A stretch of DNA of 64,000 nt from the NCBI RefSeq assembly GCF_020532705.1, contig NZ_JAJAVD010000001.1, forward strand, positions 496,001 through 560,000, in the 5' to 3' direction. The DNA comes from Methylobacillus caricis (lineage in GTDB: Bacteria > Pseudomonadota > Gammaproteobacteria > Burkholderiales > Methylophilaceae). Positions 2,744 through 48,751 of this stretch are shown here, piece after piece. The stretch's first letter is position 1; each line of letters begins with the position of its first letter. The translations under genes and the position numbers were made by a program. The notes beneath the pieces are model-generated. The model made no database searches. It was not told the origin of the DNA and saw only the letters and a program-made list of their open reading frames with translations.

Positions 2744-5700
2744 ATCCTTCAAGGATATTCATCGAGCGGCCAGTTGCCACTACGTTACTGATGCTGGCGC
2801 TGCTGATTTCTGGCATTCTGGCCTACCGCATCTTGCCGGTGGCTTCATTGCCGGAAGTCGAGTATCCCACCATCCAGGTTAAAACCCTGTATCCGGGCGC
2901 TAGTCCCGAGGTGATCAACTCGATGATCACGGCCCCGCTTGAAAGCCAGCTGGGCAAGATTGCCGGCCTGGATGAAATGTCTTCCAGCAGTGCGGGCGGC
3001 GCTTCCGTCATTACGCTGCGTTTCAATCTTGCGTCGGATTTGGGAATTGCGGAGCAAGGCGTGCAGGCGGCCATCAACACCGCTTCAAACTTGCTGCCTT
3101 CGGACCTGCCGAGCCAGCCGGTATATAGCAAGGTGAATCCTGCCGATGTCGCGATTCTCACGCTGGCGGTGACGTCCGATGGCCTGGCCTTGCCCAAGGT
3201 GCAGGACCTGGTGGATACGCGCCTGGCGCAGAAAATAGCGCAGATTTCCGGGGTGGGCCTGGTCAGCATCAGCGGCGGGCAAAAGCCGGCGGTGCGTATC
3301 AGCGCCAATTCAACGGCATTGGCGTCTTATGGGCTGAGCCTGGAAAGCGTGCGCACCGCCATTGCCTCCAACAACCTGAATGGTTCCAAGGGCAGTTTCA
3401 ACGGGTCGACACGTTCTACCACTATTGATGCCAATGACCAAATGCGCAGTGCGGACGAGTACCGCGACCTGATACTGAGTTACCGCAATGGCGCGCCGGT
3501 GCGCTTGCGTGATGTGGCACAAGCCTATGATGGCGCAGAAAACGAATACCTGGCGGCATGGGCCAATGACAAGCCTGCCGTGATCATGAACATCCAGCGC
3601 CAGCCAGGAGCCAACGTGATTGAGGTGGTCAAGCGCATACGCGAAATGCTGCCAGACCTCGAGGAAAGCCTGCCGGAAAACGTTGAAGTCGCAGTCCTCA
3701 GCGATCGCAGTAACACGATCCAGGCGTCGGTCAAGGATACCCAGTTCGAGCTTATGCTGGCGGTTGGCCTGGTGGTGCTGGTGACCTTCCTGTTTCTGCA
3801 GGATGGGCGTGCAACATTGATTCCTTCCGTAGCCGTGCCACTGTCGCTCATAGGCACGTTCGGTGTCATGTACATCGCCGGTTTCTCCATTAACAACCTG
3901 ACCTTGATGGCGTTGACGATTGCTACCGGATTCGTGATCGACGATGCAATCGTCATGCTGGAGAACATAGAGCGCTACATAGAGCAGGGCGACTCCCCAT
4001 TGCAGGCGGCGCTTAAAGGCTCCAAGCAGATCAGCTTCACCATTATTTCCCTGACTATTTCGCTCATCGCCGTGCTGATCCCGTTGTTGTTCATGAGCGA
4101 TATTGCCGGACGCCTGTTCCGTGAGTTTGCGCTGACGTTGGCGATTGCCATCCTCGTATCCATGTTTATTTCCCTCACCTTGACGCCGATGCTGTGCGCG
4201 CTGTGGCTGCATCATGTGCCAGAATCCAAGAAAAGCCGTTTTGCCCGGCGGGGGGCCAGCATCATGCAAGGCCTGATAGGTCATTATGGCAAGGCGCTGA
4301 AGTGGGTGCTGGCGCATCAGGGCCTGACATTGATGACTGCCTTGCTGACCCTGTTGGTGACGGCAATGCTTTATATCTATCTGCCCAAAGGGTTTTTCCC
4401 GACGCAGGATACCGGCCTGATACAAGGCATCAGTGAAGCGCCGCAGTCTGTCTCGTTTGCTGCCATGGCGAAGAAACAGGAGGAATTGGCCCGCATCATC
4501 AAGCGGGACCCGGCGGTGGATGGATTGTCTTCCTATATCGGCGTTGATGGCACCAATGAGGCATTGAATACCGGGCGTATGCTCATCAACCTCAAGCCCC
4601 ATGCCGAACGGAGTGACTCTGCCACCGATGTGATCAAGCGCCTGAAACAGGCAACTGCGAATATCGGCGATATCAAGCTTTACCTGCAGCCGGTGCAGGA
4701 CTTGACCATCGAAGACAAATCCAGCCGTACGCAATACCGCTTCCTGCTGACAGACCCGGATATCCATGTCTTGCAGTCGGTCATGCCCAAGGTCATGGAA
4801 AAGCTGCGGCAGCTGCCTCAACTGTCGGATGTTGCCAGCGACCTGCAGGACCAGGGCCTGCAGGCGTATCTGGTAATCGACCGGGACAATGCGGCTAGAT
4901 TGGGCGTAACGGTGAGCAGCATCAATGCGGCGCTTTACAATGCGTTTGGCCAGCGCCTGGTTTCGACCATCTATACCCAGGCCAGTCAGTATCGCGTGGT
5001 GCTTGATGTGCCACCCAATTACCGTAGCGGGCTGGAGTCGCTATCCAATCTCTATGTGCCCGGCAGCATCACGGACAGCAGCGGTGCGGTAGTGAGCACC
5101 CAGGTGCCGCTCAACTCGCTGGTGCGGGTGGATCAGCGCAATACGCTACTGACGATCAATCATATCGGTCAATTCCCGGCGGCGACGGTTTCCTTTAATC
5201 TCGCCAACGGTATTGCTCTGGGCGACGCCGTCAGTGCCATCCGCCAGGCGGTGGAGGAACTACAGTTGCCAAGCAGCATCCAGACACGGTTCCAGGGAGC
5301 GGCCATGGCATTTGAGGCCTCATTATCCAATACCTTGCTGTTGATACTGGCAGCCTTGTTTTGCATGTATATCGTATTGGGGATTCTCTACGAAAGCTTT
5401 ATCCATCCGGTGACCATTCTTTCCACGCTGCCTTCCGCGGCAGTGGGCGCCTTGCTGGCGCTATGGATATATGGCCAGGAGATAGGCATGGTTGCCATTA
5501 TCGGCATTATTCTGCTGATCGGTATCGTGAAGAAAAATGCCATCATGATGATAGATTTTGCCTTGGCGGCTGAGCGCGAGCAGGGGATGACTCCGGTGGA
5601 AGCCATTTACCAGGCTTGCCTGCTGCGTTTCCGGCCTATCCTCATGACGACCATGGCAGCCTTGTTTGGCGCCTTGCCCCTGATGTTTGCCACTGGTGCC

Positions 5701-5874
5701 GGTGCGGAGTTGCGTCAGCCACTGGGCATCACCATGGTAGGCGGCCTATTGTTGTCGCAGTTGCTCACCATCTTCACAACCCCGGTGATCTACCTCATGT
5801 TCGACCGCTTGGCACGCCGCCGGCATAAAACAGTACACGCCTCCATTACAGATGCCGATGAGGAGTTGGCTTGA
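2740..5874 (+). CDS. mdtB: RND multidrug efflux permease, MdtB type
   Basis: A 1044-residue proton-driven inner-membrane pump of the HAE1/MdtBC class. The start ATG at 2740 overlaps the mdtA stop; an in-frame ATG at 2671 would lie deep in mdtA and add residues that are not RND-like. The N-terminus '[16 protein letters not shown]' is the usual first RND helix. The proton-relay pair in transmembrane helix 4 is present as Asp401-Asp402 in '[14 protein letters not shown]', and the second-half motif '[15 protein letters not shown]' is intact. Two large periplasmic loops separate twelve predicted helices. Two different RND subunits in tandem (this and the next gene) are characteristic of MdtB/MdtC heterotrimers. 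Confidence 0.92.
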
Positions 5875-5890
5875 TGAAACGGATGGGTAA

Positions 5891-8800
5891 ATGGTAAAGC
5901 GCGTACTGGCCCAGGCTGAGCTGAAATCAACCGAGCGTAGCCCGGCTGCACTTTTCATCCTGCGTCCGGTGATGACGTTGCTGGTTTCGCTCGGTTTGTT
6001 ACTGGCTGGCTGGCTGGCCTTTGGGTTCCTGCCCGTGGCGCCGTTGCCGCAGGTGGATTTCCCCACTATTTCGGTGACAGCTTCGCTGGCCGGGGCCAGC
6101 CCGGAAACCATGGCATCTTCCGTGGCAACGCCGCTGGAGCGCAGTCTGGGGCGGATTTCCGGCATCACGGAAATGACCTCGTCCAGTTCACAAGGCAGCA
6201 CTTCCGTCACGTTGCAGTTTGCGTTGGATAAGGATATCAATGTTGCCGCACGCGAGGTACAGGCGGCAATCAATGCCGCAGCTAGCATGCTGCCGAGTGG
6301 AATGCCCACGCGCCCCAGTTATCGCAAGATGAATCCGGCTGATATGCCCAGCATGGTGCTGACCATGACATCCAAGACCAGGAGCATGGGGGAGCTTTAT
6401 GATCTTGCAACCAATATGGTTGGCCGCAAGATATCCCAGGTGCAAGGGGTCAGCCAAGTCAATGTGGCGGGCAGCTCACTGCCTGCCGTGCGCGTGGATA
6501 TCAACCCGGATGCGCTGAGCCAGCAAGGATTGGCACTGGATGATGTGCGTACGGTCATTAATGCAGCCAATGGCAGCGGTCCGAAGGGGTTTTTGCAGGG
6601 GGCTGAATATAGCTGGCAAATTGATGCCAATGACCGGTTGTTGAGTGCCAAGGATTATCGCAATCTCATCATTGCAAACCGCAATGGGGCGGTTACCCGC
6701 CTGAGTGACGTCGCCAGTGTCTACGACTCAGTCGAGGATATCCGCAATGTTGGTTTCCATAACAACCAGCGTGCCATCCTGCTGATGGTGAGCCGTGAAT
6801 CCGGCGCCAATATCATTGAGATGATAGACGAGATACGTACTCAGCTGCCCAGCATACAAGGCAGCCTGGGCGACGATATCAAGTTGACCGTGGTGGAGGA
6901 TAGGAGTCCCAATATCCGTGGCTCTCTGCATGAGGCTGAATTTACCCTCATGATTTCTGTGGCCCTGGTGATCCTGGTCGTATACCTATTCCTCAAGAAT
7001 GGCAGGGCAACACTCATTCCGGCACTGGCCGTGCCGGTATCGCTGATTGCCACATTTGCCGCCATGTATCTATGCGGTTTCTCGCTGAACAACTTATCGT
7101 TGATGGCGTTGATTATTTCCACTGGTTTTGTGGTGGATGATGCGATTGTCGTAGTCGAGCATATTAGCAAGCGCATAGAGCATGGGGAGCCGCCACTGCG
7201 CGCCTCGTTACGGGGCGCACGCGAGGTGGGTTTTACCGTGGTGGCCATGAGCGTGTCATTGGTGGCCGTGTTTATCCCCTTGCTATTCATGGGTGAGATT
7301 ACCGGCCGCCTGTTTCGCGAGTTTGCCATTACCTTGTCGGTGGCAATCCTGATTTCCCTTTTCGTTTCCCTCACACTCACCCCCATGCTCTGCGCCTACC
7401 TATTGCGGCGCAAGGATGCCAAGGCAATTGAGCCAGACACTGCACCAGATCAGCAACGCCAAGGCTTCTTCCAGCGGCTTTTGAATGGCTATCGCAAGAG
7501 CTTGTCCTGGACGCTGGATCATTCCGCCATGACGCTGGTAATCCTGTTGTTCACCATAGCGGTGAATGTCTATCTCTATGTCGTGATTCCCAAAGGCATG
7601 TTCCCCGATCAGGATAACGGCCGCATGTTCGGCAATGCGAGGGCTGACCAGGGCGTTTCCTTCAATGAACTGCAACGCAAGCTGGAAGCTTTTCGCAATA
7701 TTCTGCTGGCTGACCCTGCCATTGACCAGGTAATGGGCATGTCGGGCAGTGGCCGTGGCCCCGGCGCATCCACCAACTCTGGCAACTTCATCATCATCCT
7801 GAAAAATATCAAGGAGCGTGAGCCGGTAGAGTCGATTATCGCGAGACTGAGGCCTAAGCTGGGCGAAGTGCCGGGGGCATCCATTTTTCTGGTGAACATG
7901 CAGGATCTGCGCATAGGCGGACGCTCCAGCGATTCGTCCTATCAAATGACCCTGAAAAGCGATGACATCAAGGCCTTGAGGACCTGGGAACCCAAGGTGC
8001 TGGAAGCCATGCAGTCAGTGCCGGAAATTACAGATGTCAGTGGCGGTGGGCGCAGCAAGAGCGTGCAGGTCTACCTGCATATAGACCGTGCCGCAGCCCA
8101 GCGCCTGGGGGTAGATGTGCAGATGATCATTACCCTGCTCAATAACTCCTACGCCCAGCGCCAGATTTCCACTATCTACCAGGAACAGAATCAGTACCGA
8201 GTGGTGATGGGCGTGGCAGACAAATACATGCAGAGCCCTGACATCCTGTCCAGCCTTTATGTCGTGACCAGCAGTGGTGCACGTGTCCCGTTATCCAATC
8301 TGGTGACGTTGGGATACAACACATCTCCATCCTCGGTACAGCACGAAGGGCAGTTTGCCTCGGTCACTTTTTCTTTCAACCTGCCTGAAGGCGGTAACCT
8401 AGACCATGCCAAGCAACAGATACGCAGTGCATTGAGCGACCTCAAGATGCCCTTGAATGTGCAGGCAACTTTTTCCGGCACGGCTGGTGCCATGGAAAAA
8501 GTGCTGGCACAGATGCCGTGGCTGATCCTGGCTGCGCTAATCTCAGTCTATATCGTGTTGGGCATGCTTTATGAAAGTTATATCCATCCCCTGACCATTC
8601 TCTCCACATTGCCGTCTGCCGGGGTAGGAGCCTTGTTGGCATTGATCCTGTTTGATACTCCGCTGACGCTGATTGCCTTGATCGGCATCATTCTGCTGAT
8701 CGGCATCGTGAAGAAGAATGCCATCCTAATGATCGACTTTGCCCTGGTAGCTGAGAGAGAGCAAGGCATGGCGCCACGCGAGGCGATCCTGGAGGCATGC

Positions 8801-44947: not shown

Positions 44948-46609
44948 ATGCTGCAAACTCTTTCTATACGTGACTTTGTTATTGTCGATTCGCTGGAGCT
45001 GGACTTTAAGCCGGGATTCACTGTGCTTACTGGAGAAACCGGGGCTGGTAAATCCATATTGATTGATGCTCTGTCGCTGGTGCTTGGTGCTCGTGGAGAA
45101 GGGGGTATTACTCGTGCCGGCACTGAAAAGGCTGAAATTAATGCGGTGTTTGATATTGCAGCGTTGCCGGGCTTGCAGGCATGGCTGAACGATAATGAAA
45201 TTAGCCTGGATGAATCGCAATTGTTGTTGCGGCGGGTGATTTATGCGGATGGCCGCTCACGTGCGTTTGTAAATGGATCTGCTGCAACCGTTCAGCAGTT
45301 GCGGGAAATAGGCGAGTTTCTGGTAGATATCTATAGTCAGCATGCCCACCACTCCTTGCTGAGGGCGGCTTACCAGCGCCAGGTGCTGGATTCATATGCG
45401 GGCTTGGGTGGCCTTGCGTTGGATGTGGCGAAGGCCTATCAGGATTGGCAAATCCTTTATCGCAAACGCGTGGATGCTGAGCGGAATGCAGAGGCCTATG
45501 CTAACGAATTGGCCGAATTGCGTGACCAGGTACGGGAGCTGGCCGAATTGGCACCATCCGCGGAGGAGTGGGAGCCCTTGCAGCAGGAGCATCTGAGGCT
45601 GTCCCATGGCGCCAGCATACTGGCGGGTGGGGAAGAGTGCCGGGAATTGTTGAGTGAAGGCGAGCTGGCTGCAGTCAGGCAATTGAGCCGGGTGCACCAT
45701 AAGCTACAGGAGCTGAAGGAATATGATGGTGGCTTGCAGGAAGCATTGGATACGCTTGATAGCGCCCTGATCCAGCTTGAAGAGACGGATCGTTTCCTGA
45801 ATCGATATCTTCAGCGGGCTGACCTTGATCCTGAGCGCCTGGCTGAAGTAGAGGCACGCATCCATGCATTGCATGCGATTGCCCGAAAATATCGCGTGCG
45901 TCCTGAAGAGCTTTCAGGGTTATTGGCTGGCTGGCAAGCCCGCATGGATGAGCTGGGTGGAGCCACTGATAACGGGCAGCTTGTGCAGGAAGAAGCAAGC
46001 GCCAGAAAACACTACGATGACTTGGCTGCGCAATTGAGCGCAGGCCGCAAAAGGGCTGCTGCTCAACTGGGAGTCGGCATCACGCATGAAATGCAACGTC
46101 TCTCGCTGGGTGGTGGCAGGTTTGAAGTGGCATTGCTTGAACAGTCTCCCTCTGCCTATGGTAATGAGCAGGTTGAATTTCTGGTGGCAGGCCATGCAGG
46201 TGTTGCTTCCCGGTCTTTATCCAAGGTGGCATCTGGTGGGGAGTTGTCGCGGATCAGCCTGGCCATTCGAGTAGTCACTGCCCAGCAAGGGGATATCCCG
46301 ACCATGATCTTTGATGAGGTGGATGTGGGTATCGGTGGCGGCGTGGCCGAGGTGGTTGGCCAATTATTGAAGGCGCTGGGAGTGCAGCGCCAAGTGTTGG
46401 TGATTACGCACCTGCCACAAGTGGCCGCACAAGGCAGGCAGCACTTGCGGGTAAGCAAGGGTATGGTTGAGGGTCAGACGCTGAGCCATATTACAGTGCT
46501 GGGTGATGCAGAGCGGATCGAGGAAGTCTCGCGTATGCTGGGAGGCGTTGAAATCACTGAAACCACCCGTCAACATGCCAGCGAAATGCTGGCCGCTGGT
46601 GCGGCATAA
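44948..46609 (+). CDS. recN: DNA repair protein RecN
   Basis: An SMC-like ATPase in double-strand break repair; 553 residues. Walker A is 'TGETGAGKSILIDAL' (about residue 30), the long coiled coil spans about 160-370, and the C-terminal half has the ABC signature 'LSKVASGGELSRISLAIR' and Walker B 'MIFDEVDVGIGGGVAE'. It is downstream of nadK, forming the usual nadK-recN pair. In most betaproteobacteria the next gene on the opposite strand is fur; here that gene is decayed. Confidence 0.97.
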   Translation: MLQTLSIRDFVIVDSLELDFKPGFTVLTGETGAGKSILIDALSLVLGARGEGGITRAGTEKAEINAVFDIAALPGLQAWLNDNEISLDESQLLLRRVIYADGRSRAFVNGSAATVQQLREIGEFLVDIYSQHAHHSLLRAAYQRQVLDSYAGLGGLALDVAKAYQDWQILYRKRVDAERNAEAYANELAELRDQVRELAELAPSAEEWEPLQQEHLRLSHGASILAGGEECRELLSEGELAAVRQLSRVHHKLQELKEYDGGLQEALDTLDSALIQLEETDRFLNRYLQRADLDPERLAEVEARIHALHAIARKYRVRPEELSGLLAGWQARMDELGGATDNGQLVQEEASARKHYDDLAAQLSAGRKRAAAQLGVGITHEMQRLSLGGGRFEVALLEQSPSAYGNEQVEFLVAGHAGVASRSLSKVASGGELSRISLAIRVVTAQQGDIPTMIFDEVDVGIGGGVAEVVGQLLKALGVQRQVLVITHLPQVAAQGRQHLRVSKGMVEGQTLSHITVLGDAERIEEVSRMLGGVEITETTRQHASEMLAAGAA

Positions 46610-46685: not shown

Positions 46686-47033
46686 CTAGTCCTTAAGGGC
46701 GCAGGGCGGATTTTGTAAACATCGTATTATGTATGCGAATGGTTTTGCACCTCGAACCGCGTTCGGTCGGGTTTTCTTCTGGCGTTTCCGATTCTCCTGG
46801 TTGAGCCCAAACACGGTCTTGCCGCTTTTAAAGTGATGGCGAATCAGCAAGTCTGTTTGTTCAAACGGTGTAAACGCAGTAGCCGGGTCTACATTCTTGC
46901 CAGTTCTCAGCAGTAGCTTATAGACCCTTAACTGAAAGAGCCTGTCCTTGCTTGCCCCAGGCAGGCCCAGCACCTTGATATGTTTCAAGATTGCTTTCAG
47001 GCCGGCATTTTTCAATTCTTCTGGATCACACAT
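46686..47033 (-). pseudogene. Degenerate, truncated Fur-family regulator
   Basis: A 115-residue ORF in the position where fur is normally found (between recN and bamE, minus strand). Its first 80 residues resemble the Fur DNA-binding domain: 'EELKNAGLKA' matches the first helix, 'YKLLLRTGKNV' the next, and 'LLIRHHFKSGKTVFGLNQ' the wing. Against E. coli Fur a few residues of the recognition-helix segment are missing (ATxYRVL becomes ATAFT), and the H-H-D-H metal motif and the whole dimerisation domain are absent, replaced by a Lys/Arg-rich, unrelated tail. It is most likely a relic of fur. A short expressed DNA-binding protein is less likely. It diverges from bamE. Confidence 0.6.
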
Positions 47034-47121: not shown

Positions 47122-47868
47122 ATGCGTCATATAATCCTTTTAGCCGTGCTGTTATGCACGGCCTGCAGTTCAGCCCTGCCTTCTTTTAAACCTTACAGAA
47201 TGGACATCCAGCAAGGCAATGTCGTGACATCGAAAATGATGTTGCAATTGCGTCCTGGCATGACCAAGTCCCAAGTCAGGTTTATTATGGGCACGCCATT
47301 GATACAGGATAGTTTCCATAAGAATCGCTGGGATTATTTTTACCAGATGCGTAAAGGCGGGAAGATCATTGAGCAACGCCGCGTCATCCTGGAATTTGAT
47401 AACGATGCACTGAAGAGTGTGCGTGGCGACGTGATTCCTGCTGCACCTGGCGAAACTTCCGTTGAGGCTCCCCCAGCAGCACCTATTATTGTTGAGCCTA
47501 AGGCGCCTGAGAAAAAGGGTGGCTTGCTTGATGCTCTGATGTTCTGGAAGAGTGACGAGAAAAAGGCAGAAGAGGCGGCTGAAAAGCCAGCACCAGCACC
47601 GGAGAAACCGACAACAGTCCTGAGTAAGGATAACGCGAAGGAGCCGACCAAGGTGGTGCCGGAATTGATCTCCCCTGAGGCAAGTCCAAGTCCTGCTGTT
47701 CCGGCAGCCAAGCCTGCTGGCCGTAGCAATCCGGCACCTGTTGATCCTGCCGCGTCTGGTGCAAGTCCTACCAAACCTGCTCCGGCCGAAGAGGTGGATG
47801 AAGATGACTTGCCGCCTGAAGATGAGCCTGGCTATTTCGAGCGCATGCTGGAAAAAATAGGTTTTTAA
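47122..47868 (+). CDS. bamE: Outer-membrane assembly lipoprotein BamE with long C-terminal extension
   Basis: A component of the BAM complex that inserts beta-barrel proteins. The lipobox LCTAC puts the lipidated Cys at residue 15, and the SmpA/OmlA domain follows ('[19 protein letters not shown]', '[13 protein letters not shown]'). Beyond about residue 105, 144 residues rich in Pro, Ala, Glu and Lys form an extension, which roughly doubles the protein (248 residues; typical BamE is about 110-180). The start ATG 47122 is chosen for the signal peptide; the in-frame 47077 start is unlikely. Confidence 0.93.

Positions 47869-47935: not shown

Positions 47936-48751
<816 letters not shown>

Follow-up and report, generated by a model that had tools for sequence, protein, structure and literature searches.

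Methylobacillus caricis carries a 115-codon ORF in the gap between recN and bamE, which is the canonical site of fur in other genera of the Methylophilaceae. The window analysed here is a 64,000-nucleotide stretch of contig NZ_JAJAVD010000001.1 that contains this locus. A reading made from the sequence alone had proposed that the fur gene at this site appears to be defective and that, should no other copy exist, the strain has lost control of iron or handed it to another regulator. This locus raises the question of whether the ORF is a remnant of fur, and, if so, what governs iron uptake in its place. The positions of the ORF, of its neighbours and of its lesions are summarized in Table 1.

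The NCBIfam fur model PRK09462 matches the ORF with a score of 35.9 bits (E 5.1e-9) over residues 5-82. This score is far below the 146-bit cut-off of the model, and the match is only partial. Comparison of the ORF with P. aeruginosa Fur (1MZB) by phmmer gives an E value of 5e-9. Pfam FUR alone does not match the ORF significantly (E 0.17), and the recognition of Fur by eye has therefore outdone one profile search. When the canonical fur genes of the family are aligned with the ORF at the DNA level, the score is 178, as compared to a maximum of 12.7 for 200 shuffled sequences. The frameshift-tolerant alignment of the ORF to the Fur protein scores 221 (200 before), as compared to a maximum of 70 for 60 shuffled sequences. 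According to this alignment, with which the DNA alignment agrees, the homology to fur reaches the last codons of the ORF, partly in other frames. In other Methylophilaceae genera, the gene order is recN-fur-bamE with fur divergent from bamE, and the ORF is oriented likewise. In the tree, it branches within the Methylophilaceae Furs with a branch length of 2.84, the median being 0.12. The ORF is a decayed orthologue of the canonical Fur of the Methylophilaceae and other Betaproteobacteria, with which it shares both locus and orientation, but it lacks the metal ligands and key DNA contacts of this Fur and is not a working Fur.

Table 1. Features of the recN-bamE region and lesions of the fur remnant (window positions)
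Feature	Position	Strand	Evidence
fur pseudogene, 115-codon open remnant of canonical Methylophilaceae fur	46686..47033	(-)	profile, pairwise and DNA-level alignments
Out-of-frame segment flanked by a 1-nt and a 2-nt loss that compensate each other; HLSAED in intact Fur; codon of metal ligand H32 hit	46926..46939	(-)	frameshift-tolerant and DNA alignments
9-nt deletion in recognition helix (ATVYRVLTQ -> ATAFTP); Y55 changed, R56-L58 gone	46866..46880	(-)	alignments
Junction of deletion of about 21 codons; HHDH, CxxC and E100 removed	46790..46800	(-)	alignments
Decayed C-terminal (dimerisation) part, frames broken, visible at DNA level	46688..46796	(-)	frameshift-tolerant and DNA alignments
recN, flanking the canonical fur locus	44948..46609	(+)	
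bamE (smpA/omlA), other flank of the canonical fur locus	47122..47868	(+)	
dapB, conserved gene after bamE	47942..48751	(+)	

Forty of the 59 residues that are invariant in 30 Furs of the family are changed or missing in the ORF, and every metal ligand is among them. At the regulatory metal-binding site S2, H32 is lost (the alignment lacks a codon in this region), E80 is replaced by G, and H87, H89 and E100 are deleted. None of the DNA-contact residues R18, Y55 and R56 is retained; Tyr-Arg of the recognition helix is lost by replacement of Y55 with F and removal of R56 together with the residues up to L58. Judged by its homology and synteny with fur and by these disabling lesions, the ORF is a real fur remnant, namely a pseudogene, the frame of which is kept open by compensating frameshifts. 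Thus, the sequence-only reading correctly placed a broken fur at its usual chromosomal site, correctly derived the ORF from the DNA-binding part of Fur, and correctly noted a small deletion in the recognition helix. All metal ligands are gone, but the dimerisation part, which it took to be absent, is not entirely missing, because the sequence outside the deletion of about 21 codons is still recognizable in the DNA. The open frame of 115 codons, together with the match of residues 5-82 to the DNA-binding domain of Fur, might suggest that the ORF still produces a small protein, such as a trimmed DNA-binding competitor of Fur. This is extremely unlikely, because none of R18, H32, Y55 and R56 is intact, the frame is held open by frameshifts that compensate each other, and the closest sister species has deleted the ORF.

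The genus is represented by six genomes, that of M. caricis (G000) and those of M. arboreus (G001), M. glycogenes (G003), M. gramineus (G004), M. rhizosphaerae (G005) and a further genus-mate (G002), which we take to be M. flagellatus KT. Four of the five sister species have an empty recN-bamE gap of 101-159 nt, and that of M. glycogenes contains 812 nt of unrelated sequence. A fur remnant is not seen in the gap of any of these five species. These gaps indicate that canonical fur has been lost genus-wide, and that its remnant is kept only in M. caricis. The remnant is gone even from M. gramineus, the nearest relative in the Fur tree, so the old gene must have been deleted repeatedly, or late. 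The 812-nt sequence of M. glycogenes (L045) may be gene debris.

A FUR-family search of the whole M. caricis genome detects two intact proteins, which are encoded at C3:85715 (122.5 bits) and C1:1465782 (51.4 bits). The concern that the ORF might be the only fur copy is therefore removed. The gene at C3:85715 encodes a protein of 148 amino acid residues and is flanked by an EVE-domain gene and ilvA in each of the six Methylobacillus genomes; its product is hereafter called the ilvA-linked Fur. This protein belongs to the Fur family, because its score of 122.5 bits against PF01475, over positions 2-121 of 121, greatly exceeds the gathering threshold of 23.1. However, the NCBI equivalog model would not call it a Fur, because its score against PRK09462 (126 bits) is below the cut-off of 146 bits. 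The protein at C1:1465782 (L002) is a more distant FUR-family member, the Fur, PerR and Zur matches of which are below the NCBIfam equivalog cut-offs. Exactly this pair is present in 6/6 Methylobacillus genomes, and the FUR-family search detects a canonical-type Fur in none of them. Outside Methylobacillus, almost all genomes of the wider family sample carry a Fur of 145-160 bits. Between species, the ilvA-linked Fur shows a pN of 0.004-0.034 and a pS of 0.58-0.78, corresponding to a dN/dS of about 0.003-0.02 with dS near saturation. It is under very strong purifying selection. In a genome of another genus (G015, locus L118), the EVE and ilvA genes are neighbours and no fur is detected between them. 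A TonB-dependent receptor-like gene accompanied by cobalamin-synthesis-like genes is recognized by eye at L152:3620-5509, a few kb from the gene for the ilvA-linked Fur.

The ilvA-linked Fur is about 50% identical to the Methylophilaceae Furs, and its best match outside the genus among 274 genomes of the class is about 53% identical. In contrast, it is 73% identical to an accessory Fur, annotated as 'transcriptional repressor', that is encoded beside hemP on a replicon of Variovorax paradoxus VAI-C (CP063167). Three more members of this accessory clade are detected by a profile search, one each in 3 of the 400 genomes from a single Burkholderiales family; a canonical-type Fur is additionally present in two of these three genomes. 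A scan of named genomes with patterns finds the ilvA-linked Fur only in Methylobacillus, but these patterns are very specific, and the broader searches do find rare relatives outside. In the tree, the Methylobacillus protein nests in the accessory Burkholderiales clade with support of 100/100, although the branches near it are long and joins of such branches need caution. The AU test rejects its grouping with the Methylophilaceae Furs (log-likelihood 66.6 worse, p-AU 0.00025). The signature HHGH and a Tyr in place of the S3 His are common to the ilvA-linked Fur and the Burkholderiales members. The V. paradoxus protein shares these substitutions but keeps one cysteine (position 92), and the Methylobacillus type, unlike it, stands alone as the only Fur. 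These results suggest that the ilvA-linked Fur is a xenolog, apparently acquired from distant relatives, and the direction of transfer is probably into Methylobacillus, because the accessory clade lies among the Furs of another Burkholderiales family. If the ilvA-linked Fur were instead the native gene, relocated and fast-evolving, the identity of about 50% to the family Furs could reflect rapid change after the move. This is very unlikely, however, because the AU test rejects a Methylophilaceae clade, the identity to the Variovorax protein is much higher than that to the Furs of its own family, the substitutions described above are shared with the Burkholderiales members, and the native remnant is still present at the old place. 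On the V. paradoxus VAI-C replicon (L093:7473-7491 and 7656-8390), a Fur-box-like site with four mismatches lies upstream of hemP, next to which the accessory Fur is encoded.

The DNA-contact residues K13, R18, Y55 and R56 (family numbering) are kept in the ilvA-linked Fur. Alignment with Furs of solved structure indicates that its S2 ligands H43, E91, H99, H101 and E112 are invariant in the aligned group. The S2 regulatory ligands of FtFur are His33, Glu81, His88, His90 and Glu101, and S2 is the essential activating site in known Fur structures (PMC6123631). The roles of the metal sites are not wholly agreed, because the introduction of PMC11910503 assigns them differently for E. coli Fur. 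The Cys4 zinc site S1, which is not universal in Fur, is absent from the ilvA-linked Fur, with no cysteine at C92, C95, C132 and C137. Site S3 (His/Asp/Glu/His), likewise not universal, is incomplete, because two of its four ligands are lost by the D88 -> G and H124 -> Y substitutions. By alignment, S2 is the sole complete site of the usual three metal-binding sites. The best match of the ilvA-linked Fur among solved structures is P. aeruginosa Fur (1MZB, E 9.6e-37), in which the S2 ligands and the DNA contacts are conserved. Both proteins lack the CxxC pair and the cysteine site S1, but the ilvA-linked Fur additionally lacks the two S3 ligands. Francisella tularensis Fur (5NBC/5NHK) lacks S3 and works with S2 (PMC6123631), which is kept in the ilvA-linked Fur, but it has the Cys4 zinc site S1 that the ilvA-linked Fur lacks. 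A characterized Fur with neither S1 nor a complete S3 is not found in the literature surveyed, and searches for Methylobacillus Fur and for fur pseudogenes give nothing on point.

The symmetric Fur box AATGATAATCATTATCATT was searched for on both strands with up to three mismatches, and the reversed sequence was used as a control. This genome gives 7 + 9 strand-hits (16), most sites being palindromic and therefore counted on both strands, as compared to 0 + 0 for the control. The count equals that in relatives with a canonical Fur. Fur-box-like sites are located upstream of TonB-dependent receptors, siderophore receptors among them (L145, L146 and L148), of tonB (L149), and of a fecI-like sigma factor gene followed by fecR (L151), and one is located close to a haemin-type receptor (L147). 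One of the boxes precedes the TonB receptor at C1:1675239. The Fur regulon appears to be kept in this genome. The ilvA-linked Fur most likely recognizes the same boxes, because it has the same DNA-contacting residues. Its autoregulation is not supported, because its own gene is not preceded by a Fur box with fewer than eight mismatches. The loss of Fur-based iron control, as proposed first, is hardly credible for this strain: the canonical gene is dead and no canonical-type Fur is left in the genome, but the genome retains an intact Fur that is strongly conserved and has every S2 ligand and DNA contact, and its iron-uptake genes are still preceded by Fur-box-like sites. Control of iron has probably been maintained, because this Fur is encoded elsewhere in the genome. 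It is also unlikely that the ilvA-linked Fur senses haem or another metal, and that iron uptake is run otherwise, for example by FecI/FecR or IscR. The presence of IscR and FecI/FecR, the absence of S1 and of two S3 ligands, and the position of the Variovorax homologue next to hemP would agree with such a role, but activation is ascribed essentially to S2 by itself (PMC6123631), Fur-box-like sites precede siderophore receptor genes in this genome, and hemP is not seen adjoining the gene for the ilvA-linked Fur in Methylobacillus.

We consider it likely, with a probability of roughly 0.8, that an accessory xenologous Fur has displaced the native Fur genus-wide, and that the native gene is now a non-functional remnant. 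The suggestion that control was handed to another regulator is thus borne out in the form of a xenologous Fur throughout the genus, but not in the form of RirA, IscR or Irr. The remnant, the intact Fur with its phylogeny, conservation and ligands, and the Fur-box-like sites are observed here, and from them we infer the order of events, the sensing of Fe(II) and the repression as follows. The ancestor of the known Methylobacillus species would have gained an accessory-type Fur, inserted between the EVE-domain gene and ilvA. This protein, most likely an Fe(II)-activated repressor acting through the regulatory site S2 alone, would have taken over the iron-dependent repression of the TonB receptors, tonB and the fecI-like gene. 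The native fur would then have become redundant and been deleted in the five other species, so that its ruin is visible only in M. caricis, where the ORF is the decaying, non-functional leftover of the family's native fur. The chances are about even that Methylobacillus as a whole has exchanged the native Fur for a foreign accessory one functioning with S2 only, without S1 and with an incomplete S3. If so, this protein would represent a natural minimal Fur, and its history would be a clear case in which a xenolog displaced a global regulator while the regulon was kept. Such displacement is seldom observed at a stage where the ruin of the old gene can still be recognized. If this S2-only protein functions as an iron repressor and the cell has no other Fur, S1 and S3 would be dispensable together. 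The roles of the three metal sites of Fur are disputed, and the ilvA-linked Fur is a natural case on which to test them.

The genome encodes only two Rrf2 proteins, an IscR equivalog (214 bits, cut-off 207.55) beside iscS and an NsrR-like protein by a flavohaemoglobin gene. RirA is rejected as the replacement, because neither of them reaches the RirA cut-off. Irr is rejected as well, because it would be a FUR-domain protein, and only the ilvA-linked Fur and the protein at C1:1465782 exist. PEP-CTERM secreted proteins are encoded near Fur-box-like sites, the haemin-type TonB receptor or fecI/fecR (L147:1668-2318, 5192-5851 and 5933-end; L150:1676-2422; L151:1977-2678). Those of L147 look paralogous by eye, and the proteins of all three loci are possibly iron- or haem-linked surface proteins.
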